From NCBI RefSeq assembly GCF_917563915.1, contig NZ_CAKJTI010000007.1, positions 120,600 through 184,599 on the forward strand: a stretch of 64,000 nt of DNA, in the 5' to 3' direction. Source of the stretch: Bacillus rhizoplanae (GTDB lineage Bacteria; Bacillota; Bacilli; Bacillales; Bacillaceae_G). Below the pieces are notes generated by a model. That model saw only the letters and a program-made list of their open reading frames with translations. It ran no database searches and had not been told where the DNA came from. Position 1 is the stretch's first letter; each line of letters opens with the position of its first letter. Made by a program: the position numbers and the translations under genes. Shown one piece after another: positions 48,273-64,000 of this stretch.

Positions 48273-48716
48273 GTGAATGCTGTCGAACAGTTTGCTGACA
48301 CAATCATGAAAGAAGCATGCCGGTTGCGTGCATCAGATCTTCATATTGTGCCACGTCATGAAGATGCTGTTGTGCAATTGCGTATTGGAAAGGATTTGGT
48401 GACAAAGCACTGTATTTCAAAAGAGTTTTGCGAACGGCTTGTATCGCACTTTAAATTTTTAGCAGCTATGGATATTGGTGAAAGGAGAAAGCCGCAAAAT
48501 GGTTCATTGCAGATGAAAGTTAATGAGGAGGAAGTATATTTACGCCTTTCTACTTTGCCAACTATACATCATGAAAGTTTGGTCATTCGTATGCACTTAC
48601 AAACGGCGGTGCCAAACCTCTCGCATCTCTCATTATTCCCAAGTTCCGCGAAAACACTTCTCTCTTTTTTACATCATTCGCATGGATTAATTATTTTTAC
48701 AGGACCAACTTGTTGA
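48273..48716 (+). pseudogene. comGA: comGA, 5' part interrupted by a mobile element
   Basis: The first ~146 residues of the ComGA traffic ATPase, which powers the competence pseudopilus: MNAVEQFADTIMKEACRLRASDLHI, MDIGERRKPQNGS and LSTLPTIHHESLVIRM. The frame reads through to IIFTGPT, the first residues of Walker A (GPTGSGKT), then one foreign codon and a TGA. Family length is ~350 aa. GTG start with GGAGGGG is intact. The rest of comGA and the comG operon are not in the window, so this is an insertion by the adjacent recombinase element. Confidence 0.93.
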
Positions 48717-48725
48717 GTACGTGGG
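48701..48725. other. left attachment junction (attL) of the integrated element
   Basis: Chromosomal AGGACCAACT (the GPT codons of comGA, 48701-48710) abuts element sequence TGTTGAGTACGTGGGTAGAA. The exact crossover dinucleotide cannot be fixed without the right junction. Confidence 0.75.
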
Positions 48726-48741
48726 TAGAACCTTGTATAAT
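48713..48741 (+). promoter_or_regulatory. promoter of the serine recombinase at the junction
   Basis: -35 TTGAGT (48713-48718), 17-bp spacer, -10 TATAAT (48736-48741), then GGAAGGTG and ATG 48763. The -35 begins three bases inside the element. Confidence 0.75.
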
Positions 48742-48762
48742 TACCTTTAGGAAGGTGATTAT

Positions 48763-50235
48763 ATGCTATTCAACAACAATAACATAAAGCACGTTGCAAT
48801 ATATTTAAGATTAAGTCGTGACGAAGAAAACCTAGGAATAGAACAAATATTAGATAACCACCGTCAAACACTAATTACATTATGTAATGAAAATAGATGG
48901 TCATATGAGATTTTTGAAGAAGTGGCTTCAAGTAGTACTATAATAAATCGAAAACAAATGATGAAGCTTTTGGAACGAGTGCAACAGGACTATTTTGACG
49001 CTGTTGTAGTTATGGATATAGATAGGCTTTCAAGAAATGAGTATGACGCTAGTGATATTAAAAGGATACTTTATCAAACAGAAACATTCATTGTTACACC
49101 GTATAGATTATATGATCTTACAAAAGATGATGACAGTTTATTATTAGGGATAACTAACCTTATTGCTAGTGGAGAATATAAGCAAATTCTAAGGCGTATG
49201 CAAAGAGGCAAAAAATTCGCCCAACAACAAGGGCTATGGACAGATGGAATAGCACCATTAGGCTACTCAAAAGATTCAAAAACAAGAAAACTTGTCCCTA
49301 ATGAACGTGCTAAAGATGTTCAGTTTATTTTCTCCGAAATTGTTAAAGGTACAACTATACCTGAACTTATTAAACAGCTAAATAACATGGGAATAAAAAC
49401 AAGACAGGGGTATGATTTTAAATACAATAGTATCCAGCGTATTATAAATAACGACGCTTATAAAGGAACAATAGCCAGTAACAAAACTATTGGTCAATAT
49501 AAGCCTAGACCTAAAGAAGATTGGATTATTGTCCATAATGCACACCAACCGATTGTAGATGAAGCTACTTGGGAAGCGGCAAATAAAATCGTTAATACAT
49601 ATTCGTTTAAAGCACCTAGAAGTAAAAATCGTATTTATCCTACAAGTAATCTTATTTATTGTGCGAATTGTGGCAGGATACAAGGTTGTAACCTAAAGCC
49701 AAAACTTAACAAAATCTACATTAAGCATTGTCTGTGTGGGAACAGAGGCTTTTATTATAATCCTGTGTTAGCCTTGATTAAGGAAGAAGTGTTAGGCTAC
49801 AAAGAACATATATTAAAGGCACTGGAAACGCTGGAAGAAGGTCAGCAGGAAGACAATACTCAATGTAGAAAAGAAATACTACTTAGCCGATTAAACAAGT
49901 CTAAAAAAGCTTTAAAAAACAACAATTATCTTTTTGAAGAAGAGGAAATAGATATTGTTGAATATAGAGAAAGCAAAGCTATACGACAAGAAGAAATAAA
50001 GCTAATTGAAGAAGAAATATTGGCAATAGAGAAGGAAGATAAATCAGTTAAAATAGACACCTTAAAGGAACAACTAGAGGCTGTTGAAAACTTAGTAGGT
50101 AAGTGGCATTTATTAGACAGTGAAGGCTATTCTGATGAAAAGATAAATCGCTTATTACATGGCTTTGTTGGTGGGATATTATGGTCTTTTAAAAAAGGTG
50201 CAGAATCACCGACTATAAATATAATTTACAAGTAA
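48763..50235 (+). CDS. large serine recombinase (site-specific integrase)
   Basis: 490 aa. N-terminal catalytic resolvase domain with nucleophile S18 (YLRLSRDEE) and DIDRLSRNEYD, recombinase domain (~165-270, GYSKDSKTRKLVPNERAKDVQFIF split motifs), zinc ribbon (YCANCGR ... HCLCGN, ~300-330) and a long coiled-coil (~345-450). This is the layout of phage/skin-type large serine integrases. It is the first gene inside the element and is oriented away from the comGA junction. Together with a directionality factor (not identified) it could excise the element. Confidence 0.95.
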   Translation: MLFNNNNIKHVAIYLRLSRDEENLGIEQILDNHRQTLITLCNENRWSYEIFEEVASSSTIINRKQMMKLLERVQQDYFDAVVVMDIDRLSRNEYDASDIKRILYQTETFIVTPYRLYDLTKDDDSLLLGITNLIASGEYKQILRRMQRGKKFAQQQGLWTDGIAPLGYSKDSKTRKLVPNERAKDVQFIFSEIVKGTTIPELIKQLNNMGIKTRQGYDFKYNSIQRIINNDAYKGTIASNKTIGQYKPRPKEDWIIVHNAHQPIVDEATWEAANKIVNTYSFKAPRSKNRIYPTSNLIYCANCGRIQGCNLKPKLNKIYIKHCLCGNRGFYYNPVLALIKEEVLGYKEHILKALETLEEGQQEDNTQCRKEILLSRLNKSKKALKNNNYLFEEEEIDIVEYRESKAIRQEEIKLIEEEILAIEKEDKSVKIDTLKEQLEAVENLVGKWHLLDSEGYSDEKINRLLHGFVGGILWSFKKGAESPTINIIYK

Positions 50236-50701
50236 GGATAATCATTATTGATTATTCTTTTTTATTTTGGGCAAAAAGAAAACCCCCCTAACAGCGGTTA
50301 AGCCATTAGAGGGAAAAAGAGATACACTGTTATTACTGTTAAAGGATATTAACTTAGTATCTATAACACCAGCTATTACTGGTGACAATATTTAATTAAA
50401 GTATTATTGCTTACGCCACTCATTCACTACGTTCATTCGTGCTTAATAGTATTAGCTATCAAAGATATTAGTTATTTATTAGTTATGTAGTGCGAGGAGG
50501 TTATTACTTTTATAAGTCACACTTTGAATGTCATTAGATTGCTAACATGGTTGTGATTCCCCCCTATGAAATCAATGTTATCCAGGCTGATAATCACAAT
50601 ATGATAAGTTATGTTGATATTATTTTTAAGTGAATGGGAAATTAAACAGAGAAAGAAGTATTATCGTTTTTGTTGTGGGCTATTATTAAGAAGGGATGAT
50701 T
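50236..50701. other. non-coding stretch with hairpins and one copy of a 31-bp repeat
   Basis: Directly after the integrase is a hairpin ATAATCA/TGATTAT with T run (50238-50265). The 31-bp repeat is at 50283-50313. A CACCAG/CTGGTG hairpin is near 50370. No supported ORF. Confidence 0.6.
50283..50313 (+). repeat. 31-bp repeat, copy 1
   Basis: CCCCCCTAACAGC ... ATTAGAGGG, a weak hairpin that recurs with three substitutions at 56075-56105. Both lie 50 bp after the stop of a large gene of the element. Confidence 0.75.
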
Positions 50702-50944
50702 TTGGTTGAATTTGATAATAAACAAAATCTACTTGTTATAATTTATAATGAGTATCAAAAAGATCCCCTGAAATGATGATGACATGAGACGGTATAAATT
50801 ATGTAGAAGAAAAGTTGGGAATTTAACCTGCTATGTCTTCTGGCAAAAAGGTAAAAGAGGATTCTTGGGGGGGATAATGAACTAAAAGATATTGCGTTAA
50901 AAATGACAGGTGAGAATATTAAAAGTGCAGTGGAATTAAAATAA
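50702..50944 (+). pseudogene. decayed small gene (YjcQ-like start?)
   Basis: Translation from TTG 50702 gives MVEFDNKQNLLVIIYNEYQK then DPLK and a stop. Downstream, in other frames, is a gene-like tail ending DNELKDIALKMTGENIKS plus AVELK and a stop at 50944. The start resembles YjcQ-family phage/mobile-element proteins by memory; the family call is tentative, but the broken state is clear. Confidence 0.45.
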
Positions 50945-51172
50945 AATATCTTCGCTTACCCAGCATCCATTAAGAGGGTGTTTTTTTAATGGAAAAGTAT
51001 TTCAAGTGAATTTGCTTGAACAAGATGTTTTCATATTATCTAAATTAGAAAATGTTATTTTCGCAAAAATATTCTAAATATTATTGTTTATCGACATATT
51101 CCGACTATAATTGTGGAAGAAATGTATAATAATAGAAATAGATTATACATTTTATTAAATGGAGAGAAAAAG

Positions 51173-53482
51173 ATGGCACTTTTAGAAGATAAAATCGATC
51201 AAATAACCCAACCAGAACTTAGAAATATTATTAAAAGTGAAGTGAAAAAACTTAAAGGTAGAAAACAATTCGGAGTGGTATTTGAACAGCATATACCTGA
51301 AGTTGTTCCTCTTTTTAGTGCACCCATTACCATTCGATCAACGGTGGCGAAGAAGAAAGGAAATTTGAGTGAAACTTATCGTGTAAAAAAAATATTAGGT
51401 GAAACTAGTGAAGTAGTTAAAAATTCAGACGGAACGATAGAAGAAGTACCAACTGAAAGTGTAGTTATTGTTAAGCAATTTGGAGATCCTATCTATCCTG
51501 CCTTAGTAAAATTAGATGAAGTTAGAAATGGTAATCAAAGTTCTCCACACCATGTTTTGATAGAAGCTGATAATTATCATGCACTTCAATTATTAGAATA
51601 TATGTACTCTAATAGAGTTGATTGTATCTATATTGATCCTCCATATAATACTGGTGCGAGGGATTGGAAATATAATAACGATTACATTGATTCTAATGAT
51701 ACATACAGGCATAGTAAGTGGTTATCGATGATGCAGAAACGCCTTGTATTAGCTAAACAACTATTAAAAAATGACGGAGTACTTATTCTTACCATCGACG
51801 ACTACGAATTGTATCATATCGGTACGTTACTAGAGGAAATATTTCCTGATTATGATGATTACATAGTGACAATTGAACATAACAAAAGGGGAAGAAGAGG
51901 AAAGAACTTTGCTAAGACTAATGAATTTGCTATCTTCTTAGTCCCAAAAGGGCAGGAAGTAATTCAAGAAGAGATCCTTGAAGAAATGATTGGTGGAGAA
52001 ACTAGAAATTTAAGACGAACAGGCAGTGGTTCACTAAGAACTCAACGGTGGAGAAAATTTTTCCCTATATATGTAGACAAAAATACCCTCGAAATTGTAA
52101 GTGTCGGAGACCCTATACCTCTTGGTCAACAGAGAGAAGATAGTTCAGATGAAAACATCATAACTGTCTGGCCAATTGATGAGAATGGTATAGAGAAAAA
52201 TTGGCATTATGGGCTTGAAAGAACTAGAGATGCTGTAAGTCAAGGGAAGTTACAAGCTAGAGAACAATCATATGGTGTTCAAGTTTATTACACTTTAAGG
52301 GAAAAGCAGTCTAAAAAATACAAAACTGTTTGGAGTAAGACAACATTAGATGCAAGTACCTATGGGACCGAACTCCTTTCTAAAATTATGGGTAGATCTT
52401 CTAATTTTGATTTCCCTAAGTCTGTATATGCAGTAGCAGATTGTATAAACGCAGTAGTTAGTAATCGGGAGAATGCCTTGATATTAGATTTTTTTGCTGG
52501 AAGTGGAACAACTTTACACTCAGTGTTAATGCTGAATCAAACTTATAACAAGCAACACCAATGCGTACTAGTTACAAATAATGAAGTTTCTGGAGATGAA
52601 GCGGAAAAATTAGAACAACAAGGTTATTATCCGGGTCAACCGAATTGGGAAAAACATGGGGTATGTCGGTCTGTTACATTTCCACGTTCCAAATTCACAA
52701 TTTTGGGTAAACGAGATGATGGTTCAACAATTGAAGGAGACTATACCACAGGTCGCCTTATTGATAAAGAGAAACCAAGAAATATAAAACAGATTGGATT
52801 TGTGGATGGAAAAACATTAAATACACCGATGAGAAAACAATTAGTTGCTTTAATAGATGGACTACCACAATCAAAAATTAAAGGTGATATGCCTTTCTTT
52901 TTAGACGAAAAGTGTTCTGCAACTATATTATTTGATGATACTAAGTTTGAAGAGTACTTAGAAAACCTCGAAGAAAATCTACATGTCACAGATATATACA
53001 TAATGACCTCACGTCAAAGTCAGTTTAGGAGATTTAAAGAACAAATTATAGAAAACATGGGGTATTTAATAGTTAAAGAAGAAGAAAAACGTCTGTTTTC
53101 TGAAGGATTTTCTGCAAACCTAGATTATTATAAGTTGGACTTTTTAGATCCAGATGAAGTTGCTTTAGGAATGCAATTTAAATCAATATTACCAGTTCTA
53201 TGGATGATTGCGGGATCAAAAGGCGATATTCCTGTTGTCGAAGGTTCTGTAAGGTATTTAATACCTGAGAATAGTACATACGCTATATTGATGAAGGAAC
53301 AATATTTTGGTGAATTTTCTGAAAAAATAAGCGTAAGAGAAGATTTAACACACGTCTTTATCATTACCAACTCAGAGGATGCTTACTTTGATATGAAGTC
53401 AGAGTTAAATGTTCCCAATGTAAATATGCTTTATAAAAACTATTTGAAGAATTTTGAATTAAAACGACAATGGAAGGAATAA
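51173..53482 (+). CDS. Type III-like DNA methyltransferase (Mod)
   Basis: 769-aa beta-class adenine/N4-cytosine methyltransferase: catalytic DPPYN at 155-159 precedes the SAM motif FFAGSGTT at about 441. The large region between should hold the target-recognition domain. A ~130-residue N-terminal extension precedes the catalytic core. ATG 51173 has GGAGAG; the longer frame from 51113 is less likely. It ends 6 nt before a helicase-nuclease gene, the usual Mod-Res layout. It would protect host DNA at an unknown site. Confidence 0.88.
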   Translation: MALLEDKIDQITQPELRNIIKSEVKKLKGRKQFGVVFEQHIPEVVPLFSAPITIRSTVAKKKGNLSETYRVKKILGETSEVVKNSDGTIEEVPTESVVIVKQFGDPIYPALVKLDEVRNGNQSSPHHVLIEADNYHALQLLEYMYSNRVDCIYIDPPYNTGARDWKYNNDYIDSNDTYRHSKWLSMMQKRLVLAKQLLKNDGVLILTIDDYELYHIGTLLEEIFPDYDDYIVTIEHNKRGRRGKNFAKTNEFAIFLVPKGQEVIQEEILEEMIGGETRNLRRTGSGSLRTQRWRKFFPIYVDKNTLEIVSVGDPIPLGQQREDSSDENIITVWPIDENGIEKNWHYGLERTRDAVSQGKLQAREQSYGVQVYYTLREKQSKKYKTVWSKTTLDASTYGTELLSKIMGRSSNFDFPKSVYAVADCINAVVSNRENALILDFFAGSGTTLHSVLMLNQTYNKQHQCVLVTNNEVSGDEAEKLEQQGYYPGQPNWEKHGVCRSVTFPRSKFTILGKRDDGSTIEGDYTTGRLIDKEKPRNIKQIGFVDGKTLNTPMRKQLVALIDGLPQSKIKGDMPFFLDEKCSATILFDDTKFEEYLENLEENLHVTDIYIMTSRQSQFRRFKEQIIENMGYLIVKEEEKRLFSEGFSANLDYYKLDFLDPDEVALGMQFKSILPVLWMIAGSKGDIPVVEGSVRYLIPENSTYAILMKEQYFGEFSEKISVREDLTHVFIITNSEDAYFDMKSELNVPNVNMLYKNYLKNFELKRQWKE

Positions 53483-53488
53483 TTTAAA

Positions 53489-56023
53489 ATGAAAATTGGC
53501 TTAAAGGATTTTCAAGAAGACGCAGTAGAAGAATTGATTAAGGAATTGTCAAAAGCTAAGCGAGAAGTAAAAGAAGATGGTTTACAGGCAGTTGTATTAT
53601 CATCACCTACTGGTTCAGGTAAAACAGTTATTACAGCAGCGTTAATGGAATCAATTTTGGAAGGGTCAGATGGTATTCCCGCTGAAAGAGATGCTGTTTT
53701 TCTTTGGTTCTCAGATCAACCTGAATTAAATGAACAGTCCCGTAAGAAAATTTTAGATTGTTCCGACCGATTTCGCGAAAATGATATTGTAATGATTGGT
53801 CCTGATTTTGATCAAGAAACATTTGATGGTGGTAAACTTTATTTTGTTAATGCACAAAAGTTAGGTAGAGATAAACTTTTAACAACAAAAGGTGACCATC
53901 GAAATTATACAATATGGGAGACTATCCAAAACTCCTCAGATCTATACAAAGACAAATTCTATTTAATTATTGACGAAGCACATAGAGGAATGAATCGAAC
54001 CTCATATGATGAAAAATTCTCTAGAACAACAGTACAAAAACTCGTTCTTGGCGACCCAGGATTAGGAATAAATCCTATAGGAATGGTAATAGGTATCTCA
54101 GCTACTCCAGATAGATTTTTAAGATTATTACAAGGTACGCAACAAAAAGTAAATAGAAGGATCCCTCGTGTAATAGAGATTGATCCTGAAGTTGTAAGAA
54201 CATCGGGTCTACTAAAAGATAAAATTGTTTTGTTTCATCCAGAAGAAGAACAGTATTCTGATTGGACATTACTCTCAGCTGCTACACGTCAATTAGTAAT
54301 GATGCGTAGGGAATGGAGTAAGTACACTTTGTCTCAGGGAAATGACGAAGTGCATCCAGCCATGGTTATTCAGGTTGAGGATAGAAATGATACCAGCATT
54401 ACTAAAACGAATCTTGAATTAGTCATTAGGACAATTGAGGATGAATATGGAACTATTAGTGATGAAGAGATTGCACATTGCTTTGAAGAGGATGTAGATA
54501 TATCTGCTGGAAATAAACGAATAAGGAAAATTGAGGCTTCGAAAATTCAAGATCAAAAAAATATAAAATTTATTTTATTTAAAATGAGTTTAACAACTGG
54601 TTGGGACTGTCCTCGTGCCGAGGTTATGATGTCATTTAGAAAGGCAAAAGATTATACTTTAATCGCACAGTTGATAGGTAGGATGGTGAGAACTCCTTTA
54701 GCTAGGAGAATAGAAGCCCAAGAATTATTAAACTCTGTATCGTTATATCTACCACATTATGACTCCGAAGGATTACGTAATGTAATAGATCATTTAAAGA
54801 ATGACCCTGATTTCGTACCTCCAACAAGTATTGAAAATGGGAATAACCAAGTAATTCTTAATCGTCATAAAGATTTTGATCATGTTTTTAAAGTACTAGG
54901 AGAAATACCTACGTACCCACTTGAAAAAAGCAGAAAAACATCAAATGTAAGGCGTTTAATAAAATTATCTCGTTTATTAACATCCTTTCACCAAATAGAT
55001 TCTGAGGCTTTAGATAATTCGAAGAATCTAATAATCCAGACCTTGTTTAATGAAAAGGAAAAATTAAAAACTAAGGATAAGAGTTTTGCAACAAAAATCA
55101 GTGAAGCAGATGAGATGATAATAAATCCTATTACAGTTGAACAAGGAATATGGAGGGAACTCCCGGGAGAATCACTAAGAGTTAAACTTAGTGAGCCTAA
55201 TATTGCTGAATTGTTTAATAGGTGTGGAAAGAGACTGGGGGAAGGTCTTCATTTAGATTATTGGTCAACTTATTATGATAGACAAAACCCTAATACTTCT
55301 AAATTAGAATTATTTCTTACCTTGCAACATAAAGAGGTGTATGAAGAACTAGAAAATGTATGTAAGTTGCGTTTAAACGAATTGTTTGAAACTCACAAAC
55401 TGGCAATTAAAGCACTTTCTACATCAGAACAAGAAAAATATAATATTATTAGGGGACAATCAAAAATACCTGAAAAAATTGAGTTTATAGCACCTACTCA
55501 AATTTTATTCTATGGAGATATCAGAAGTTCTGACTATGAACTATATGATAAACACCTTTATATTACTGATAAGGGAGTTTTCCCAGCGAAATTAAATGGT
55601 TGGGAAAAAGCAACGATAGAAGCAGAAATATTACGTGAAGATGTGGTTGGATGGTTGCGAAATTTTGATAGAAAAACATGGTCGTTTTCAATACCATATG
55701 AAGATTCAGGTAAAATTAAACCAATGTATCCTGATTTTCTAGTTGTTAGGAAGTTAGGAGACAATCTAATTGTAGACATACTTGAACCACATAGAGATGA
55801 TTTGGATGATAACTGGAAAAAGGCGGTAGGATTAGCTAAATTTGCTGGTGAACACTGGAACAGTTTTGGTCGAATTGAGTTAATACGTAAAAATGGAACA
55901 CGATTAAAGAGATTAAACTTTAATGATGAAAATGTAAGGACTAGAGTGGCTGGTGTTAAAAGCAACGATCACCTTGATACTTTATTTGATATTCTATCAA
56001 CTGAATTATATAAACAATTATGA
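53489..56023 (+). CDS. Type III-like restriction subunit (Res) helicase-nuclease
   Basis: 844 aa. SF2 helicase with Walker A SSPTGSGKT (39-46), DEAH (~162-165), ISATP and the C-terminal helicase motif QLIGRMVRTP. Near the C-terminus (about 748-768) is a PD-(D/E)xK-like segment YPDFLVV ... VDILEPH, followed by a helix KAVGLAKFAGEHW. The usual lysine of the ExK motif is replaced by histidine (EPH). The partner mod gene is 6 nt upstream. Confidence 0.85.
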   Translation: MKIGLKDFQEDAVEELIKELSKAKREVKEDGLQAVVLSSPTGSGKTVITAALMESILEGSDGIPAERDAVFLWFSDQPELNEQSRKKILDCSDRFRENDIVMIGPDFDQETFDGGKLYFVNAQKLGRDKLLTTKGDHRNYTIWETIQNSSDLYKDKFYLIIDEAHRGMNRTSYDEKFSRTTVQKLVLGDPGLGINPIGMVIGISATPDRFLRLLQGTQQKVNRRIPRVIEIDPEVVRTSGLLKDKIVLFHPEEEQYSDWTLLSAATRQLVMMRREWSKYTLSQGNDEVHPAMVIQVEDRNDTSITKTNLELVIRTIEDEYGTISDEEIAHCFEEDVDISAGNKRIRKIEASKIQDQKNIKFILFKMSLTTGWDCPRAEVMMSFRKAKDYTLIAQLIGRMVRTPLARRIEAQELLNSVSLYLPHYDSEGLRNVIDHLKNDPDFVPPTSIENGNNQVILNRHKDFDHVFKVLGEIPTYPLEKSRKTSNVRRLIKLSRLLTSFHQIDSEALDNSKNLIIQTLFNEKEKLKTKDKSFATKISEADEMIINPITVEQGIWRELPGESLRVKLSEPNIAELFNRCGKRLGEGLHLDYWSTYYDRQNPNTSKLELFLTLQHKEVYEELENVCKLRLNELFETHKLAIKALSTSEQEKYNIIRGQSKIPEKIEFIAPTQILFYGDIRSSDYELYDKHLYITDKGVFPAKLNGWEKATIEAEILREDVVGWLRNFDRKTWSFSIPYEDSGKIKPMYPDFLVVRKLGDNLIVDILEPHRDDLDDNWKKAVGLAKFAGEHWNSFGRIELIRKNGTRLKRLNFNDENVRTRVAGVKSNDHLDTLFDILSTELYKQL

Positions 56024-56053
56024 CTGTTAGGGCTATTCCCTGACAGTTTTTTT
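56023..56053 (+). terminator. mod-res terminator
   Basis: ACTGTTAGGG, 5-nt loop, CCCTGACAGT and seven T; the 5' arm begins at the res stop. Confidence 0.92.
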
Positions 56054-56074
56054 ATGTAAATTAGGAAAAATAAG

Positions 56075-56105
56075 CCCCCCTAACAGCTATTAAGCTATTA
56101 GAGGG
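56075..56105 (+). repeat. 31-bp repeat, copy 2
   Basis: CCCCCCTAACAGC ... ATTAGAGGG, matching 50283-50313 at 28 of 31 positions. Confidence 0.75.
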
Positions 56106-56182
56106 ACGGCAGAGAACAAGCCATGTTGTTTACATGAAAAAGAAAAGTGATTAACACTTTATTTAAGCCACTACTGTTAATC

Positions 56183-56890
56183 ATGGCATTAAATTTAATA
56201 AAAGGTTTATCGAAGGAAATAAAAGAAAGAGTTGAATGTTAGTGAAATTTACTTGACTTGATAATGGTGCAGATTCATTAAGGTCTGCATATGAAAACTT
56301 AGAACAATTAAAAGAGATAATTGTTGGTGAAGGACATAGACTAAAAGACGCAGTTATTTTTCTTAATCATGGAGTAGAACTGTTGTTAAAATACATTCTT
56401 CAACAACGTAGTCCAGCGTTAATGTTTGAAAAAATTGAACCTTACTTAAAAGCAAAACAGGGCTTGAAAAAGTTTAAAGGTGGTCAAAAGATGGTCTTTG
56501 ATATAGATGGAAATGTAAGGACTGTTAGTCTTTTAGAGGCGTTAAAGAGAATTGAGTATCTCTGTGATATTGATATTATTGAAGAATTTTATGCCACAAT
56601 TCTTTATGTTAATAAAATACGTAATAATTTCATGCATTACGAAGTGGAATTGGATGACAAGGAAACGGAAACCCTTAGTGACAAACTTACAAGTGTGTTA
56701 TGAACAAGCAATAGAATTTCTTGAAATTCATATTGAGGATTTAGATGATTATATTTAGGACTCACGTTTTGAACTTACCACTGAAGAATATGCGGGGCAA
56801 CAAGCAGAATTTTGGGCTGAAATGCAGTATGAAGATATGAAAATCGAAGATATAGAATGTGCTTACGAAGATCTAGGTGAAGGAAAATAG
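56183..56890 (+). pseudogene. broken HEPN-domain gene
   Basis: Reading starts MALNLIKGLSKEIKERVEC, shifts frame near 56240, continues LRSAYENLEQLKEIIVGE, FLNHGVELLLKYILQQ and VNKIRNNFMHYEVELDDK, shifts back near 56700 to YEQAIEFLEIHIEDLDDYI, then a stop, then an in-frame tail to 56890. RNNFMH is an Rx4H motif as in HEPN RNases/toxins. Two frameshifts and one nonsense codon make it inactive. The 321-bp ORF at 56383 is only its central part. Confidence 0.75.
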
Positions 56891-57333
56891 TAAGAGTTTA
56901 GTTTAAATTTGTATTACCTAATGAAAAAATACAATGATTATTTGTGCTTTTTGTGCAATTTATAATGTTTGGTTGTCTTTTGTACAAACTAGCCCTAAAA
57001 ACTTTTTTGCATAACCTCAATAGTGTTAATCTTTTGTGAAATGTCATAAATTGTAATAATGTTAGGTACTAAAAAGACTTTGCACAATTATCACTGGTTA
57101 GATCCGTTTATTTGCTAGTGAAAATAAGAAGAAACGCAAATGGAAAGGCAAACATAAAAGAATTTCTTAGCGATTATCAAAAGTCATTAGAGGGTAAGGG
57201 GAAAGAATCTACCTTACCACAAAATTATAAAAAATTATTTTACATGTCTTTTTTTATTCCCATTCTGCAAGTAGGTAAATGTAAGGTTCAAAGATTGAAC
57301 TACTAAAATTTGTAGAAAAGGAATGGTTTTTAA
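56891..57333. other. non-coding stretch, possible gene relic
   Basis: Contains two copies of TTGTGCA/TGCACAA (56951, 57081). A 64-codon frame starts at 57112 with no ribosome site. It holds NIKEFLSDYQKSLEGKGKES, which looks like the start of a tyrosine-recombinase core-binding domain. I treat it as a relic rather than a gene. Confidence 0.4.
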
Positions 57334-57849
57334 ATGACAAACACTGTATCCACAATCAAAGGGACAGAAGTTATTTGTAAAGGAAATGTAAATGGTAACT
57401 TTGAACAAGTGCCAATGGAATTATTCGATTATATTCAACTAGGATTGATTACTCATACTGATTTAGTCATTTATGTGAAATTACTTCAACGATACAATGA
57501 AAACTATGGTTATGCTTTTCCAACTATTGAACATTTAATGATTGATACTCGTATTGGAGGTAAAGCAACTGTTCATAACAGCCTTAAAAGATTATGTGAA
57601 GTTGGGCTAATACAGAAAAGCAAGACAAATAGAGGGAATAATGTTTATGTGGTCTACAAGCCATTAAGCAAGACAGAATTATATAAATGTGTTCCTGATA
57701 AGGTTCAACAGTTTAAAGAATTTGAGAGTAAGTTACTGAAAATATCAGATCAGGACAAGGAACGTTTTCAACAGCACCTACAAGAAAAACAAATGAGGGA
57801 ACAACAGGAACAGCAGATTCAAGCTAGAAATATTGTTCCTGAAGGTTAA
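57334..57849 (+). CDS. winged-helix (HTH_36-like) plasmid-type protein
   Basis: 171 aa. Residues ~25-110 are a helix-turn-helix of the kind at the N-terminus of plasmid/phage replication proteins (LGLITHTDLVIYVKLLQRYN, YAFPTIEHLMIDTRIGGKAT, LKRLCEVGLIQKSK). The C-terminal 60 residues are a glutamine/glutamate-rich coiled region. Ribosome site AAAAGGA. The palindromes downstream (57966-58141) are candidate targets. Replication or regulatory role is not resolved. Confidence 0.65.
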   Translation: MTNTVSTIKGTEVICKGNVNGNFEQVPMELFDYIQLGLITHTDLVIYVKLLQRYNENYGYAFPTIEHLMIDTRIGGKATVHNSLKRLCEVGLIQKSKTNRGNNVYVVYKPLSKTELYKCVPDKVQQFKEFESKLLKISDQDKERFQQHLQEKQMREQQEQQIQARNIVPEG

Positions 57850-57965
57850 ATAATGAATTGTGATTAACCCATGAGAAAAACAGTGATATGACAGCATTTG
57901 TTTGCTTTGAAAGGCACAATTTTAATAATCAGTAGAATTGGTAGTTTTAAAAATGGACTTCCATA

Positions 57966-58141
57966 GTTCAATAACTGGACTTGTCATAGTTCAAATTATG
58001 AACGTTATACAAACTTACTTACACATATTTAATTATACAAACTTAAATATACTTTTTAAAAGAATACTATCAAAAGAAGAAAAGAAAACTGTTAAAAGAA
58101 TGAAGTAAAGTAAAGAAGGTATTAACGTTCATTATTTGAAC
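57966..58141. promoter_or_regulatory. three GTTCA-N5-TGAAC palindromes
   Basis: Sites at 57966-57980 (GTTCAATAACTGGAC, one mismatch), 57989-58003 (GTTCAAATTATGAAC) and 58127-58141 (GTTCATTATTTGAAC). The last two lie in a 22-bp inverted repeat (57985-58006 against 58124-58145, two mismatches). They are the only structure found in the 440-bp gap 57850-58291. Likely protein-binding sites. Confidence 0.6.
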
Positions 58142-58291
58142 CATGCACAATATATGTTCTTTGTCAACTGTAGATAAAATAAGGGTTCTTGTCATATTTA
58201 GCTTGTGCAAAATTTCACTTTTTCCGCTTCCACGTCCTCTTTATACAGTCGCCTCAAAATATTTTATTTCGCACAGTAAAAGACCACACTA

Positions 58292-58897
58292 TTAAAGTGT
58301 AGCCTCGTATTCTTTCACTTTCTTGTAAAAGGTTGCTTTCTTCATTTCCACATCTTTCATAAATGCCACCGCTGTTATCTTTCCTGCTTTCCATTCCTTG
58401 TACAGCTTGTTCCATTCTTTAGGAAGTGCTAACACTGGACGTCCTAAATGTTTTCCTTTTGCTTTAGCAACAGCGATTCCTTCTTTTTGACGCTGTTTAA
58501 TAGTTTTCCTTTCCTGCTGGGCTAGTGTAGTATACACCTCAATTAAAATGTTATTTACCATATCTAAAATGCCTTCTTGACCTTCTTGTATATCTATCAT
58601 AGTAGTTGGTAGATCAATTACTTTAACTCTGATACCCTCGTTTTTAAAGTATTGTAGGTACTCTTTGATTTGCTGTTTATTACGTCCTAAAAGGTCAATA
58701 GATTTTATGTAAAGCGTGTCGCCACTTCTCATTGCTTTAAGCATGTTTTGAAATTCCTCACGTTCCATATCCTTGCCACTTGCTTTATCGCTGTATATGT
58801 ATTTCTCATCAGTTACATAACCCTTTAATGCCTCATATTGTCTATCTAAATTCTGTTCTTTAGTTGATACACGCATATAGCCAAAATTGATTCCCAT
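58292..58897 (-). CDS. serine resolvase/invertase, substituted active site
   Basis: 201-aa small serine recombinase: catalytic serine S11 (GYMRVSTKEQ), long E helix, C-terminal HTH (KEWKAGKITAVAFMKDVEMKKATFYKKV). The conserved DRLGR reads D68-L69-L70-G71-R72, so the arginine equivalent to gamma-delta R68 is leucine (one base, CGT to CTT). ATG 58897 has GGTGG. Candidate res sites lie just upstream. Confidence 0.88.
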   Translation of the reverse strand: MGINFGYMRVSTKEQNLDRQYEALKGYVTDEKYIYSDKASGKDMEREEFQNMLKAMRSGDTLYIKSIDLLGRNKQQIKEYLQYFKNEGIRVKVIDLPTTMIDIQEGQEGILDMVNNILIEVYTTLAQQERKTIKQRQKEGIAVAKAKGKHLGRPVLALPKEWNKLYKEWKAGKITAVAFMKDVEMKKATFYKKVKEYEATL

Positions 58898-59203
58898 TAT
58901 TAAAACCACCGTTTCTATTAGTTGATAGATTTAATATACAACAACCGTCTATAAAGGTTGTTTTTTCAATATACGTACATAAAGGTTTATTCCCCATTTA
59001 AGTAGACGTCGTTTTTGGCTGTTTTTCCACCGTCTATACAGGTGTACCTTTTTAGACAACAATATAAGATTAAGTTACCTTACCTTAATTCGAATTAAGT
59101 TACAAACATTTAAATATAACACACTTTTATTATTGGTGTAAATGATTTTCTTGTGTTTTTTAATAAAATTTGGTATATTAACTCATGAAATAGAGGGAGA
59201 TAT
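58898..59203. other. candidate res region of the first resolvase
   Basis: ACAACC-GTCTATAAA-GGTTGT (58940-58960) and CACC-GTCTATACA-GGTG (59029-59045) are palindromes sharing the core GTCTATA(A/C)A; TACGTACATAAAGGT (58972-58986) is a partial third. Their place upstream of a resolvase gene fits a multi-site res. The rest of the 306-bp gap is AT-rich with nothing recognised. Confidence 0.5.
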
Positions 59204-59392
59204 ATGAATCCGATGATTAAACGATTCTTTCATTCACATGATATTAAAGTAAATGAGGATTTATTTGCACTATCAGAATTACTCCAGTGGTTATTTCGGA
59301 GTGCTATTCGCAATGATGAACCTATTGATGTTTATATTCCTTCTGAAAGAATGCGGACATTATTAGAAATGTACTTAAATAATGAGATTTAA
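59204..59392 (+). CDS. small orphan protein, 62 aa
   Basis: MNPMIKRFFHSHDIKVNEDL..., then FALSELLQWLFRSAIRNDEP and IDVYIPSERMRTLLEMYL. The latter half recalls the C-terminal end of larger plasmid/phage proteins, so it may be a detached domain. GAGGGAG ribosome site. Function is unknown. Confidence 0.55.
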   Translation: MNPMIKRFFHSHDIKVNEDLFALSELLQWLFRSAIRNDEPIDVYIPSERMRTLLEMYLNNEI

Positions 59393-59754
59393 TTTGCATA
59401 AAAAAACTAGCAAATAACTCTACAAACGCTGATATATCAAGCCTTAAAAAACATTTCCTTAAAGAAAGAAAAAATACACTATACACACTCCGAGGGATAC
59501 AAACTATCCCTCTCCATGTGATTAGTGCGGTTAATAAAAAAATAATATTCTATATTAGTCGTAAACAGTGTGGGAGTGGAACGACCACATACGTAGCGTA
59601 GCGGAGTATAGAGAAATGAGTAATTGAATGAAAGATAATTGTGATGTAGTGAGTCATATGATTCGATTGGATGTGAGACAGTAAATAGTTATTAGAGGAA
59701 TGATGAGATCAATAGTATTTTCATTGTTTGATATAAATAATAGGAGGAAATGGT
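59393..59754. other. 362-bp intergenic region
   Basis: One hairpin GAGGGATA/TATCCCTC (59491-59511) without T run. The words CAAGCCTTAAAAAACA (59438) and CAAGCCCTTAAAAAACA (60221) recur before the next genes. No gene seen. Confidence 0.5.
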
Positions 59755-59991
59755 GTGGAACTAGAACGATATTTTTTCAATCCATATAAAAAGAAATACA
59801 AAGGTCATTGGTATTATCGCTGTATGCAATGCAACACGGTTATACACGTTCCTAAAGAACCTGAAGGTGGTTTTTACACTTGGTGCTACTGTGACGAGTA
59901 TAGTGGTGATTTGGTGGGACGTATGGTTTGTTCAAAGGAGTGTATAGAAGAAGTTGACCAAGAATATAAGAAAAAACGAGGATGGGCATAG
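59755..59991 (+). CDS. small cysteine-rich protein (zinc-ribbon-like)
   Basis: 78 aa with CMQC, CYC and CSKEC cysteine groups (YRCMQCNTVIH ... TWCYCDEYSG ... MVCSKECIEE), likely a zinc fold. GTG start after TAGGAGGAAAT. Unknown function. Confidence 0.6.
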   Translation: MELERYFFNPYKKKYKGHWYYRCMQCNTVIHVPKEPEGGFYTWCYCDEYSGDLVGRMVCSKECIEEVDQEYKKKRGWA

Positions 59992-60254
59992 TAGCCGATC
60001 CTTTTATTTTTTTATCATTATATCTCCTCACGAGAGTAGCATTGGGAAAGCATTAAGGATTTGAATCATAAAAGAAGATTTATTAGTAAGGTTATTTCAA
60101 GGTCTGGCTTTTTCGTGTAAGGAATATATAATCTTTTTGTTGTTCTTATAAAATTTTTTCAATTTGATGTCCTATTATGAAATGAAATTGCAAGTACCTA
60201 ATTGTAAGGGGCAATAACAAGCCCTTAAAAAACAATTACTTGGAGGTACTAACA

Positions 60255-60485
60255 ATGAAAACAAACGTTAAGAATGGCACTATTTATTTAGGAGAGTTTG
60301 CTACAGATACAGAAACTATTCGATTAGGGGACTGTGATATTTTAGGACTACAAATAGAGACAGAAAGTAATGGAGGTTGGTTTTCTGTACTTGGTGAAAC
60401 AGATGAAAAAGGAATTGTTAAGCGTTTAATTATAGACCTAGAACCAATTGATGAGGATCCATATGAAGAAGATTATGATAATTGA
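60255..60485 (+). CDS. hypothetical protein, 76 aa
   Basis: Acidic small protein starting MKTNVKNGTIYLGEFATD and ending in a D/E/Y-rich tail. Strong GGAGGT ribosome site 8 nt before ATG. No family recognised; the acidic character might suit a DNA-mimic or anti-restriction role, but nothing proves this. Confidence 0.55.
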   Translation: MKTNVKNGTIYLGEFATDTETIRLGDCDILGLQIETESNGGWFSVLGETDEKGIVKRLIIDLEPIDEDPYEEDYDN

Positions 60486-60535
60486 ATAAGAAAAGCGAAT
60501 TAAAAGGCTAAATTATTTGGAAAGGAAAGGTGTTT

Positions 60536-60766
60536 ATGGACGGTATTGGATTTAACAACGTCAAATTAACAGATAAAGACGTTTATGAAATTTTGTTTCT
60601 AAATAAGGTGAAGGGGTTACAGCCTTATGAGATAGAAAAAAGGTTCCCTGTATCTAGGACAACCATTAAAAATATTGTAAATGGAAAAAGTCGGAAAGAT
60701 TGTTATTTTGTTTTCATAGAATACAAGGAAAAACACCCTAAAAAAGTTATGACACTATTTGACTAG
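60536..60766 (+). CDS. small HTH protein
   Basis: 76 aa with a resolvase-type helix-turn-helix: DVYEILFLNKVKGLQPYEIE, KRFPVSRTTIKNIVNGKSR. Possible regulator or excisionase-like factor; ribosome site GGAAAGG before ATG 60536. Confidence 0.6.
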   Translation: MDGIGFNNVKLTDKDVYEILFLNKVKGLQPYEIEKRFPVSRTTIKNIVNGKSRKDCYFVFIEYKEKHPKKVMTLFD

Positions 60767-60931
60767 TTTAACTAAACAGATAAAAAGTACAGGAACGAGG
60801 GTTTTAAGTGGTACTAGTAATAGTATCACTTTTTCTTTATATCGATATTACTATATTTCAGAAATGTATTTTGATTAGAAGGAAAATAGTCCCTTTTTGT
60901 CAAAAAAATGTAATTGAAAGGGAGATGTTTC

Positions 60932-61675
60932 ATGAAAAGGGGTCAAATAGGAGTTAGTCACTTAGTTTATATCATTATAATTTTTGTAATTGTTCTTTCG
61001 TTCTTTCTTGTTATAGCCTTTGGGGGGACAGATAACGCTGGTACAATGATGGGAACTGCCTCAACTGTTTCATCATTGATTTTATCAGTAATAGCAATTG
61101 TATTATCTTTAATTGACGTAGCAGGTCAAAGAGAATCTATGGTAGATTTAAAAGAAACTGCTGAGAAATTGCAGGAGTCAAACATAATTGCGAGTTCAAT
61201 AATTGAAAGTCTAACAGCAAAGATGGATGAATTACAAGGTATGAAGGACCAAATGATTAAGGCAGTAAATAAATCAGAGGAATGGAGAACAGGGCTGGTA
61301 AAAGAAATTCAAGGACTTAAACAAATGGATGATGTAAAGAAAGAAGATTTAGAAGGTCTTTATAAAAAGGCTAATGAAGGTGTTAAAAGTTTAGATTTTG
61401 ACATATGGTTAGAGAAAAATTTAGTCGAACAATCCTTTAAGGATGTAGGTTCTACATACTCCTTTATTAAGTACCTTCGAGAACACTTTCAAGAAAATGA
61501 CCAGTTTAAGTCATCACACTTTGTATCTATGATTCAAAGAAAATGTTTGTTGACTCATGCCGATGCTATAATAGTTTTTAAAGACCTAGTGCAGAACAAT
61601 TATATTTCATTGTTCATGAAAAAAGGTGATGGTGAATCTAATATAAGATTATCCAATAAATTATTTGAGAAATAG
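60932..61675 (+). CDS. two-TM coiled-coil protein of unknown function
   Basis: 247 aa. Two N-terminal TM segments (residues ~8-30 LVYIIIIFVIVLSFFLVIAF and ~42-62 TVSSLILSVIAIVLSLIDVA), then a coiled coil (~65-150) and a C-terminal alpha-helical/winged-helix-like region (FIKYLREHFQEND ... DAIIVFKDLVQNNYISLF). ATG 60932 with AAAGGGAG. Lies between the resolvases in the defence-rich part. No family recognised. Confidence 0.6.
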   Translation: MKRGQIGVSHLVYIIIIFVIVLSFFLVIAFGGTDNAGTMMGTASTVSSLILSVIAIVLSLIDVAGQRESMVDLKETAEKLQESNIIASSIIESLTAKMDELQGMKDQMIKAVNKSEEWRTGLVKEIQGLKQMDDVKKEDLEGLYKKANEGVKSLDFDIWLEKNLVEQSFKDVGSTYSFIKYLREHFQENDQFKSSHFVSMIQRKCLLTHADAIIVFKDLVQNNYISLFMKKGDGESNIRLSNKLFEK

Positions 61676-61689
61676 ACAGGAAACTTTTG

Positions 61690-61713
61690 GCATCCATTTT
61701 GGATGTTTTTTTA
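61690..61713 (+). terminator. terminator after two-TM gene
   Basis: CATCCA, 3-nt loop, TGGATG and seven T. Confidence 0.85.
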
Positions 61714-61848
61714 TTGGCAAAATATCGCCTCTTTGCTGTGCATACTTGTGCAATCAGAAAATATTTTTTTGCACAAAAGCTAGGTGTAACAAGGTTCGAA
61801 TAGGTGTTCTGTAAAAGGCTATGCACAATTAAAAAAGACGATCACCGT

Positions 61849-62427
61849 TTAAAGTATCGCCTGTTGTTTCTTCTTAGCCCTTATAAGGGTACTTTTAGAA
61901 ATGCCTGTCATGTTCTCCACTTCTTTATACGAGTGAGTTTCTAACAGTTTTAAAGCGTGTTCTATCTGTTTCTTGGTATATTTATTAGGACGCCCTTCTC
62001 TAAAGTCTGTACGTTGTTTGGCAATGGCTTTACCTGATTGAGTACGTTCTACAATCATGTTTCTTTCATATTCAGCAAAAGCAAAAAATATTTGTCTCAT
62101 TAGTTTACTACTTGAGGTGTTGTCTAAAATCATTCCCATATTGTCTATGATGACTTTTACTCCTCTATCAATCAATTCAGTAATGATTTTTTCACCTTCA
62201 ATTAGTGTTCTAGCAAAACGATCAAGTTTAGTTACCACTAATGTGTCACCATTTTGTAGCTTATCTACTAATTCCTTGAACATTGGACGATCTGTTGTTT
62301 TCCCTGTAAATGCTTCCTGTACTATCTCATTACAATTATAGCCTTCTAATATTCTTAGCTGGTCTTTTAAACTATTACCGTCCTTAGCTTGTCCGTATGT
62401 ACTTACCCTAGCATATCCATAAATCAT
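61849..62427 (-). CDS. serine resolvase/invertase
   Basis: 192-aa Tn3-type resolvase with intact catalytic set: S9 ([10 protein letters not shown]), TKLDRFART (both arginines) and [18 protein letters not shown], plus C-terminal HTH ([21 protein letters not shown]). GGTGG ribosome site. It differs from the first resolvase throughout, so it is not a recent duplicate. Upstream inverted repeat TGACACC (62461) / GGTGTCA (62502) may be its site. Confidence 0.92.
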
Positions 62428-62460
62428 TGTTTTTCCACCTTTATTTTTGAATATAAGTTA

Positions 62461-62508
62461 TGACACCGATTGATACCCTGATAATACTGGAATGTGTTCT
62501 TGGTGTCA
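62461..62508. promoter_or_regulatory. inverted repeat between resolvase and Shedu-like gene
   Basis: TGACACC (62461-62467) and GGTGTCA (62502-62508) in the divergent promoter gap. Candidate resolvase or repressor binding site. Confidence 0.4.
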
Positions 62509-62618
62509 ATACTGTTAAGTTTTGGTTATATTATTTATAATAAATATGACTTGTTGTATTGATGTTCCGGAAAAGTAAGAATACAGCATCTCGTTTAATT
62601 TTAAAAGGAGATGATAAG

Positions 62619-63848
62619 ATGGAGGAAAAAGAAACATTAACAATGGAGGATGTTGCTACTTCATTAGGAAAAATGCTAATGGAGAATTATTGGGGAAAAT
62701 TATGGCGTCTTCTAGAAAAAAATCCTGATTTAAAAAAGAATTTCACAAAATTCTTACTGAATCCAGAGAAGGTAATATTATATTTAGGCAAAACCCATTG
62801 GGGTGTAGAGTATATAGGGGATGTTAATTCTCAAGAAATTAGTTCGAGACATACAGCTGATATTCAAATTTTAGACTATTCAAAAGGAGAGAACCTATTA
62901 ACAGACATATTAGGCATTGATTATAGTAAACATACAGGTCCAGTAATGCCATTACTTGGGTATAATGAAGATCTCGTTTATCCTACTAATGAGGCAATGG
63001 ATATTATGATAGGGAATGGTTGGAATTTAGGTGGTCAGTCAATGATAATGGGTATCAATACAGGCGGATTTGTATTACAGGAAGGCATGTGTCATAGAAT
63101 AGTTAATGGTTTCTTTTATGGAACTAACAAATCTGGCCTAGTTACCAGAAATGTAAAGTGGCTAGATTTGTTTCCATTACAAATAGATGATACAGATGTA
63201 GAAGTAGATGCATTTAAATTTTATATGTGGCCTAATCTTGCAGATGTCATAATGCATGATGTCCATTTTCAATATCCTCTCCCTTCTGGATTTAGGGAAG
63301 AAAAATGGTATAGTTTAAATCGCTTTGTTGAGTTGATTAGTTCTAAGGATACGAGTGAACCTCAAATAACTGCTTTTCTAGCTGAACCTGAAAATCAGTT
63401 TATATTAAAAATGGCTTTTATGGGTAAAAAGATATCTTCTGAATGTGAATTAGAATGGCAATCAGAAGAACGTAAAGCGATTAGGCCAGACTTTTTTATA
63501 GAAGGGTCAAATGGTTATTCGGACATTGTTGAATTTAAATTACCTAATTTAAAAAATATAAATAGCATAGTAGGGCGGGAGAATAGAGAAACCTTCAGTG
63601 CGGAGATTCATTCATATGTTAGTCAAACAAGAGACTATGAGTATTATTTTGAAGACCCTAAAAATAGAGAGTTTGCAGAAGAAAAGCATAGAATAAAAGT
63701 TTATTATCCGAAAAGAATTTTGGTAATGGGAAGAAGATGGATGTTAGATACCCCAAATTGGAGAAGGTTAGAAAATGATTATAGAAACATTATGATTAAA
63801 ACCTATGACGAAGTTATAGATTTAGTTTTAAGTCATTTATATTCATAA
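62619..63848 (+). CDS. Shedu-like DUF4263 nuclease (SduA-type)
   Basis: 409 aa. C-terminal half (~245-405) matches the Shedu nuclease pattern. It has helix EPENQFILKMAF, PD-(D/E)xK core RPDFFIEG (P290-D291) and SDIVEFKLP (E305-F306-K307), AEIHSYVSQTRDYEYYF (Q336), VLVMGRR-type strand (RILVMGRR) and the end LENDYRNIMIKTYDEVIDLV. The N-terminal ~240 residues are not recognised. ATG 62619 has AAAAGGAGATG 8 nt upstream. Shedu is a single-gene anti-phage system first described from B. cereus. Confidence 0.82.
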   Translation: MEEKETLTMEDVATSLGKMLMENYWGKLWRLLEKNPDLKKNFTKFLLNPEKVILYLGKTHWGVEYIGDVNSQEISSRHTADIQILDYSKGENLLTDILGIDYSKHTGPVMPLLGYNEDLVYPTNEAMDIMIGNGWNLGGQSMIMGINTGGFVLQEGMCHRIVNGFFYGTNKSGLVTRNVKWLDLFPLQIDDTDVEVDAFKFYMWPNLADVIMHDVHFQYPLPSGFREEKWYSLNRFVELISSKDTSEPQITAFLAEPENQFILKMAFMGKKISSECELEWQSEERKAIRPDFFIEGSNGYSDIVEFKLPNLKNINSIVGRENRETFSAEIHSYVSQTRDYEYYFEDPKNREFAEEKHRIKVYYPKRILVMGRRWMLDTPNWRRLENDYRNIMIKTYDEVIDLVLSHLYS

Positions 63849-64000
63849 TCTTATTTTTTTAGAGGGATGGAGAATTAAACAACATTGTTTTAACTATAAC
63901 TAAGTGCTACTATTACCGCTTATTTAACATGAAGTTTATGTATCAACCCGTAAGAAATGTAGATATAGGTTAATAATTATCGATTCCTGTAAGATTATAG
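63849..64000. other. end of window inside the element
   Basis: 152 bp of AT-rich sequence with no ORF. The element's right end (attR) is not reached. Confidence 0.6.

Follow-up and report, generated by a model that had tools for sequence, protein, structure and literature searches.

The window, by which we mean the whole stretch of 64,000 nucleotides that was analysed, contains the 5΄ part of comGA, a large serine recombinase (LSR) gene directly behind it, and the left 15.3 kb of an island. The relevant features are as follows.

48273..48716, + strand: comGA 5΄ part, GTG start, 147 aa, T2SSE profile match
48708..48709, + strand: crossover dinucleotide AC of attL, bases 1 and 2 of the Walker A Thr codon
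48713..48741, + strand: promoter-like TTGAGT-N17-TATAAT (consensus match) in the attP right arm, directly 5΄ of the recombinase
48763..50235, + strand: LSR, 490 aa, integrase of the element (Pfam Resolvase and Recombinase, PHROG, relatives at the same site)
51113..53482, + strand: type III restriction-modification (R-M) modification subunit, 789 aa (Pfam N6_N4_Mtase; PADLOC MTase_III, 2.9e-105)
53489..56023, + strand: type III R-M restriction subunit, 844 aa (Pfam ResIII, 4.6e-16; PADLOC REase_III, 8.8e-11)
56383..56758, + strand: two-frame remnant of a candidate defence gene (intact relative in L001)
57334..57849, + strand: HTH_36/DnaD-like replication-initiation-type protein, 171 aa (Pfam; PHROGs DnaD-like helicase loader, 1.1e-7)
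58292..58909, – strand: small serine resolvase/invertase, 205 aa (Pfam, PHROG)
59204..59392, + strand: C-terminal remnant of a P-loop protein, 62 aa (homologues in relatives)
61849..62427, – strand: second small serine resolvase, 192 aa (Pfam, PHROG)
62559..63848, + strand: Shedu (SduA) anti-phage protein, 429 aa (PADLOC SduA, 1.7e-182, 605 bits; Pfam SduA_C, 1.2e-8)

The comGA 5΄ part matched the Pfam T2SSE profile (1.7e-33, profile positions 7–151 of 370). Its native codons stop inside the Thr of GPT(GSGKT), the Walker A motif; the native sequence ends at position 48709 and is followed by read-through into the element up to a TGA at 48714–48716, giving a C-terminal end of ..HGLIIFTGPT C stop and a truncated ComGA without everything from the Gly after GPT onward. 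The LSR frame starts 46 bp past this fused stop. The original prediction that comGA is cut right after the GPT codons, with an LSR 46 bp further on, thus agreed with both the coordinates and the Pfam domains. ComGA queries matched the 5΄ part alone in the window, and the right end of the island therefore lies beyond position 64000. The right-end DNA motif of the elements in genomes G001, G127 and G363 was also absent from the window, which is only suggestive and weaker evidence than the missing ComGA 3΄ match, the motif being missing in G195 and G767 as well.

We compared the locus with those of relatives. An LSR of 53% identity or more occurs at eight loci (the window included); in seven of them comGA is cut at this one site, and the eighth is a decayed fragment in G002, outside comGA. 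Both element ends were present in five relatives (G001, G127, G363, G195 and G767; 10.2–18.1 kb), the attL of which aligned with that of the window; the comGA 3΄ part, expected downstream of the element, was found in all five. These relatives, together with the left junction in the window, uphold the placement of a serine-recombinase element in the Walker A codons. In G118, comGA is cut at the same place by a different end, with a junction that does not have the GTTGAG end, and this genome has, besides the interrupted copy, an intact comGA on another contig. When the flanks were joined, an open comGA of 359–365 codons was restored exactly in four of the five complete elements, as predicted for excision of a gene-intervening element; in the fifth, comGA is broken again by a second element. 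Intact comGA genes, which had been proposed as a check, were found as empty sites in G771 and G773 beside G195/G767, and in G002 beside G127. In G127 and G195, the next six frames are open and were assigned by eye, in order, to comGB–comGG. Judged by sequence, the locus represents competence-gene disruption by integrase-directed insertion inside a transformation gene.

The recombinase has an N-terminal resolvase domain (PF00239, 2.5e-20) followed by a Recombinase domain (PF07508, 1.2e-21), both above the cut-off, a length within that of the LSR class (about 450–550 aa), and a match to PHROG integrase phrog_95 (1.5e-79). The dinucleotide AC was common to attL and attR in all five complete relatives and formed the entire shared run in four; in G195 the run was TCCAAC, a pair that by itself would not fix the core, its shared run being longer than AC. 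The attP arms were symmetric at 13–18 of 26 positions, and the att sites accordingly appear to consist of a 2-bp crossover core, AC, centred in inverted arms, as in other LSR systems. A crossover at GG, an idea that came from Bacillus tianshenii alone, was abandoned after alignment of the five attL/attR pairs. The putative promoter, a consensus match, had identical spacing and position in all six elements. The prediction that the entry site is widely conserved was supported in that all 31 distinct comGA sequences with an unbroken P-loop matched at least 29 of the 32 positions invariant among the used sites, although these sequences were chosen by protein motif and the match is partly by construction. 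The T2SSE paralogue, which is full-length in G001, G127 and G363, also matched at 29 of 32 positions (one paralogue sequence compared), equal to the weakest comGA; a conserved protein motif is thus not enough to account for the target choice, and motif-only targeting was rejected.

Defence-type genes were detected in all five elements scanned (window, G001, G127, G363 and G195), each with a different set; the G363 matches were weak. The G767 element contains a homologue of the type IV-like HNH gene of G195. The L001 relative of the remnant at 56383..56758 is a 219-aa protein matching PADLOC PDC-S64, and the P-loop protein left as a remnant in the window is whole in the G363, G195 and G767 elements (PHROG 2467 for G363 and G195). 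The claim that all later genes are accessory holds for those scanned, namely the type III R-M genes, the two small resolvases and SduA; neither the defence cargo nor the recurrent targeting of comGA by further elements, described below, had been foreseen. No capsid, tail or terminase genes were found among the window proteins scanned (the element being read to position 64000), nor by eye in the ORF lists of the relatives, and a prophage identity of this family was rejected on these grounds. No relaxase or mating-pore genes were noticed in the ORF lists, in a scan of part of the ORFs that covered the window element to 64000. A carrier phage or plasmid was sought using the LSR and none was identified: the search of viral contigs gave one match at 23% identity, and that of phages and plasmids gave no best place with 60% identity or more and none covering 80% of the query.

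Among the window, G001, G127 and G363, the LSRs are 73–77% identical and the host ComGA fragments 44–54%; this difference shows, at the level of sequence comparison, horizontal spread of the island between genera. Between G195 and G767, dS was 0.43 for the LSR and 0.21–0.26 for comGA, in a table from which pairs with saturated dS and three frames on the antisense strand of other genes (dS 0.01–0.25) were excluded. The two elements therefore look like separate acquisitions, and a single old insertion inherited vertically is not favoured, since the element genes are more diverged synonymously than comGA, although faster change of element genes may account for the higher values.

Other elements also use comGA. 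The crossover of prophage LSRs that are ~20% identical to the window LSR also lies at this AC. Further prophages have entered the His-box and Walker B codons, and Tn7-like elements insert just downstream. The last were recognized in G001 (its second element), G020 and G780, with TniB and TniQ domains in G001 and G020, a Mu-type transposase C-terminal domain in G001, and genes assigned by eye only in G780; they have TGT..ACA ends and 5-bp target duplications (TTGGA, TAGAA and TCCAG, read by eye). In a sample of the order, 348 of 397 genomes gave a match, and 8 of the 150 matches listed were short frames. It is largely shown, from sequence comparisons, that comGA is a shared landing pad in Bacillales, with three recombinase classes and about six element groups converging in or next to the ATPase-motif codons.

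We considered the possibility, raised in the original prediction, that the island is a regulated reversible switch, which is excised at competence (or in another programme) to restore comGA and is kept in the population. The skin element in sigK, SPbeta in spsM and gin in gerE are models for such a switch. The exact restoration of comGA described above is compatible with this reading, as are dN/dS values of 0.062–0.119 for split-comGA pairs (G195/G767 group) against 0.061–0.178 for intact-relative pairs (G177 rows were not used, its comGA being interrupted at another site), although a recent insertion would give low dN/dS as well. In G001, G127 and G363, an ORF of 42–52 codons (pN 0.11–0.22 versus pS 0.46–0.53) stops 44–45 bp short of the right end of the element and is a candidate directionality factor; SprB of SPbeta has 58 aa (PMC4191935), and gin is likewise a non-phage element with R-M genes (PMC5595907). 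However, no comparable small ORF clustered from G195/G767, the elements of these two genomes seem to have been acquired separately, and no sign of competence-linked control was found. Moreover, the competent cell is not terminal, unlike the mother cell, and excision would be expected to lose the island. A regulated switch is possible by sequence but improbable, and any excision of the island is probably infrequent and independent of competence. We give similarly little credence to the joint proposal that comGA is a landing pad and this family a reversible toggle; if it were true, a cell with the insertion would refuse DNA and gain restriction and Shedu, and a cell that had excised it under some condition would be competent again.

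It is even less likely that these hosts had lost comGA function beforehand and that the element fell into a neutral site. The comGA of B. tianshenii has two insertions, and the gene must have been dead when the second of them, at least, arrived. However, the comGA frame is open apart from the insertion in four of five cases, which largely refutes this explanation for G127, G363, G195 and G767; in addition, dN/dS of split comGA resembles that of intact genes, the same 2 bp are used in hosts whose ComGA proteins are so dissimilar, and the comGB–comGG-like frames are open in G127 and G195. An assembly artefact, for which nothing speaks except that the window is a single sequence, has a negligible probability: in five other genomes comGA is cut identically, the adjoining element end and promoter-like sequence are shared, and both ends were found. 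This recurrence, with G118 as a sixth genome cut at that place, also argues against chance, and the observed insertion is confirmed.

Taken as a whole, the evidence is very probably best explained by a non-phage integrative defence island in the P-loop codons of comGA that follows a selfish-island logic. The LSR would have recombined the attP of the island with these codons, with the crossover at AC, a site defined by comparison. Insertion splits the ComGA N-terminal domain from the ATPase and cuts the comG operon, and from the established biology of ComGA the cell should fail to build the competence pilus and take up DNA. The island brings with it Shedu and a type III R-M system. It likely targets DNA that competent Bacillales are bound to keep unchanged, and its insertion would remove the uptake route through which homologous recombination could delete it, phage defence being its payment to the host.

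These results make the conflict between natural transformation and mobile elements testable in a clear-cut case, which ties loss of DNA uptake to gain of defence genes. Two LSR lineages have settled on one dinucleotide, within a codon that the host can hardly change without ATPase loss. The model predicts which Bacillales are non-transformable; in one search centred on a carrier, these were 13 of the 40 genomes that had a comGA match. It also provides LSRs whose target is defined and conserved.

Several known systems resemble this island. SCC elements with Ccr recombinases are serine-recombinase islands with exchangeable cargo, and their target gene differs from comGA; the window LSR matched the NCBIfam models CcrB (74.6 bits, cut-off 900), CcrC (46.4, cut-off 900) and CcrA (33.3, cut-off 700) far below all cut-offs, and SCC membership was rejected. 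The gin element in gerE, a sporulation gene of Bacillus cereus ATCC10987, is, like the present family, a non-phage element of tens of kb with an LSR and R-M genes that splits a host coding sequence and allows exact restoration; it is excised in sporulation with a tested directionality factor, GirX (PMC5595907), whereas the present family targets comGA, occurs in hosts of several genera and may be able to excise. SpST71A, a 44-kb prophage that splits the 988-bp comGA ORF of Staphylococcus pseudintermedius at 509 bp (PMC7029219), should likewise end competence, and a comGA prophage is also described in PMC8297860; unlike SpST71A, the islands of the present family are 10–18 kb long and non-phage, have an LSR and sit at Walker A. 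In Macrococcus strain CCM 7927, the comG locus is similarly interrupted, by the prophage phiMC1 (PMC6008420); the host belongs to a different family of Bacilli. Integrases of prophages and islands also target the competence genes comYC, comFA, comK and comM, which has been argued to protect the elements from removal by transformation, with comFA targeted convergently at distant sites (PMC4774983; comGA is named there solely in the reference list); unlike these cases, two LSR lineages here share one dinucleotide, and comGA collects several element types. The competence gene comM of Acinetobacter baumannii is also interrupted by elements with defence systems, among them AbaR and some that are Tn7-like (PMC11472951); gene and phylum are different there, as is the recombinase class relative to the window family. 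Durrant et al. (PMC10083194) reported LSR target genes enriched for DNA competence genes and one conserved site used by diverse LSRs; comGA does not occur in the main text of that article, and the window LSR family may be inside its catalogue. Elements that break competence genes are thus already known, and a defence island placed by an LSR at the Walker A codons of comGA is a variant of them.

We read the comGA frame of the window, which opens at a GTG and runs through HGLIIFTGPT into one foreign codon and a stop; its Pfam T2SSE match ends at profile position 151 of 370. A serine recombinase with Pfam Resolvase and Recombinase domains begins 46 bp past this stop, and the original prediction, that comGA is cut after GPT with a serine recombinase 46 bp on, was thus borne out by both ORF reading and Pfam. 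The relevant features are as follows.

48273 (GTG) to 48714–48716 (TGA): 5΄ part of comGA
48763–50235, forward strand: large serine recombinase (LSR), 490 aa
56383–56758, in two frames: related to a candidate defence gene (PDC-S64; 219 aa and intact) of locus L001 in Bacillus tianshenii (G001)
59204–59392: C-terminal remnant of a P-loop protein
60240–60485: small ORF of unknown function
60530–60766: small ORF of unknown function, a helix-turn-helix protein as judged by eye

Relatives of the two small ORFs were found solely in the element of genome G363, among six elements compared. The LSR is followed on its 3΄ side by a type III restriction-modification (R-M) pair, two small resolvases, a DnaD-like protein and, at the window edge, Shedu SduA (605 bits, PADLOC). 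Four ComGA queries matched the 5΄ part only, and no comGA 3΄ part was found in the window; the right end therefore lies outside it, and the element exceeds 15,293 bases.

We searched for relatives of the LSR in contigs and in genome samples. The contig search returned B. tianshenii (77% identity), a Metabacillus iocasae fragment (locus L002, 66%) and one distant match (23%). Among 397 genomes of the order, nine matched at 1e-60: G001, G127, G363, G195 and G118 at 54–77%, a fragment in G002 at 67%, and three at 34%. The class sample gave a match in 1 of 398 genomes, G001 itself, and 3 of 101 relatives of G195 matched, the new one being G767. Among the eight loci with an LSR at least 53% identical, including the window, comGA was cut at Walker A (the P-loop motif GPTGSGKT) in seven. 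The exception was G002, in which an LSR fragment with a stop adjoins proA (L002, 10001–10976) outside an intact comGA. G118 carried, on separate contigs (L074 and L046), an interrupted and an intact comGA with 89.6% likeness across 540 bases; a second copy, mixed strains or contamination are alternative explanations. The LSR of G118 is broken by a stop, and the usual end of the element is missing from its comGA junction. All three genomes with 34% relatives (G076, G113 and G117) retained an intact comGA. In G076 (L100) and G117 (L102), this LSR follows a truncated gene that by eye resembles spoVFB (dipicolinate synthase B), which is reminiscent of the vfbin element of B. weihenstephanensis.

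Both element ends were available in G001, G127, G363, G195 and G767, with element lengths of 11,255, 13,022, 10,160, 17,715 and 18,109 bases, respectively. The base after AC differed between the left and right junctions (attL and attR) in all five and the base before it in four, G195 sharing the longer run TCCAAC; the core common to all five is accordingly AC, the first two bases of the Thr codon in GPTGSGKT. When the flanks were joined, comGA was open over 365 (G127), 359 (G363), 364 (G195) and 363 (G767) codons, and over just 259 codons in G001, where a second insertion interrupts it. Relatives with an intact comGA, which it had been proposed to look for, supplied natural empty sites that agreed with the joined flanks; by eye, 53 of 54 bases of the G773 site are identical to those of the joined G767 site. 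The entry site had also been claimed to be highly conserved, and this held: of the 32 positions that do not vary between the five used sites, 29 or more were kept in each of 31 distinct comGA windows whose P-loop is uninterrupted, although these windows were picked by protein motif, so that first and second codon positions of the motif largely match by construction. In 6/6 elements, TTGAGW-N17-TATAAT precedes the LSR, its first base lying five positions past the core A, so that a promoter-like sequence overlaps the arm presumably bound by the recombinase; the LSR would thus likely regulate its own expression.

Other elements also enter comGA. It was interrupted in 13 of 40 matching genomes among relatives of G363 (41 searched) and in 4/41 relatives of G127; in the genus of G195, 3/36 had only interrupted copies, and G118 additionally had an interrupted copy alongside its intact one. 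In the order, 348 of 397 genomes matched, with at least eight short frames (8/150 among the matches listed). These survey sets overlap and three were drawn around carriers, so the counts are not population rates. Prophage LSRs only ~21% identical to the window LSR (over 312–423 residues) occupy Walker A in G789, G381 and G793; AC is common to attL and attR in all three, alone in two, whereas G789 shares ACAG. The His-box codons (TGHLV) were entered in G043, G218, G788, G794, G343, G797, G229 and G177; another prophage LSR group was seen in the seven that were followed (all but G797; in two frames in G788). The His-box and Walker A prophage LSRs are ~36% identical, indicating that the two groups are mutually related. 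Tyrosine integrases entered the Walker B codons in G799 and G007 (Pfam) and G030 (by eye, two frames). Tn7-like elements lie just 3΄ of the His box: the insertion points in G001 and G020 are no more than 1 bp apart, and the one in G780 is 9–10 bp upstream of them. The Tn7-like element of G001, which breaks the B. tianshenii 3΄ part again, spans 32 kb (L012, L076 and L077; contig G001:C4, ~39.6–71.7 kb); it carries type I R-M-like genes (by eye) and is flanked by a target duplication, TTGGA, and the G020 element is related to it. The comGA 3΄ part was located in all 16 genomes examined for it, on another contig in G788, G797, G799 and G007, and the 3΄ junction was read in 14. In total, we counted 24 insertions in 22 genomes plus the window, leaving out an extra left junction in G793 with no recombinase nearby. 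G793 (L131 and L121) holds two comGA 5΄ parts in tandem at a distance of ~15 kb; the first is interrupted at the His box, the second at Walker A by the prophage.

The LSRs of the window, G001, G127 and G363 are 73–77% identical, versus 44–54% for the adjoining ComGA fragments; being more alike than their neighbours, they indicate an element that moves between genera. Between G195 and G767, dS was 0.21 and 0.26 for the comGA 5΄ and 3΄ parts, versus 0.43 for the LSR, 0.79 for the PHROG 2467-type P-loop protein and 0.46–1.95 or past saturation for other shared element ORFs, which would most simply reflect separate acquisitions. The dN/dS of split comGA pairs in this group was 0.062–0.119 (0.061–0.178 among intact relatives), and that of G363 was slightly higher than among its intact relatives (0.050–0.069 versus 0.027–0.060). 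Six open frames in comGB–comGG order (named by eye) follow the element in G127 and G195. These observations fit young insertions and do not prove a switch.

The proteins of the window and four elements were scanned for cargo, using PADLOC names as annotation, candidate systems included.

Cargo of five Walker A elements
Window: type III R-M and Shedu
G001: C5 methylase, type II restriction enzyme, Vsr, PDC-S64, 188-aa tyrosine-integrase-like piece
G127: type III R-M
G363: GHKL ATPase and MrcB-HNH protein (PADLOC weak, ~1e-7; Pfam MrcB_N 5e-60)
G195: Aga nuclease, AbiC-like (7e-7), type IV-like HNH, PDC-S54

Neither the protein scans nor a reading of the ORF lists turned up phage structural genes. 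The P-loop protein is kept in three elements (L072, 8854–10155; L073, 5591–6925; L099, 7535–8932), and those of L072 and L073 belong to PHROG 2467, of unknown function; it hints at a phage or satellite ancestry. An ORF of 42–52 codons ends 44–45 bases before the right end in G001, G127 and G363, and its last 34 codons show pN of 0.11–0.22 versus pS of 0.46–0.53. The G001 product matched nothing in Pfam or NCBIfam, and in the clustering neither G195 nor G767 yielded an ORF of this kind. For comparison, SprB, which SPbeta requires for its excision, is 58 aa long (PMC4191935). We regard the ORF as a candidate directionality factor only.

Judged by sequence comparison, elements of three recombinase classes have settled on comGA codons that are indispensable to a competent host. 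It is predicted from the sequences that transformation is lost, that the recombinases are active, that the cargo acts in defence and that the elements can excise. In open-access main texts, we found no literature on comGA with a serine recombinase or with Tn7-like elements, and the accessible text of a Tn7-like cargo survey (PMC8649781) contains neither comG nor competence as a whole word. As far as the cited sources go, three points are new: comGA Walker A as the target of a defence-carrying LSR family, two LSR lineages using the identical two bases, and the accumulation of different kinds of element in comGA. Staphylococcus pseudintermedius (PMC7029219, PMC8297860) and Macrococcus (PMC6008420) have been described with prophages in comGA or the comG locus; among open-access main texts, the S. 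pseudintermedius prophage was the sole pertinent match for comGA together with an integrase and attachment site. Insertion into such codons agrees with the published views that elements benefit by stopping transformation (PMC4774983) and that LSR targets are enriched in competence genes (PMC10083194).
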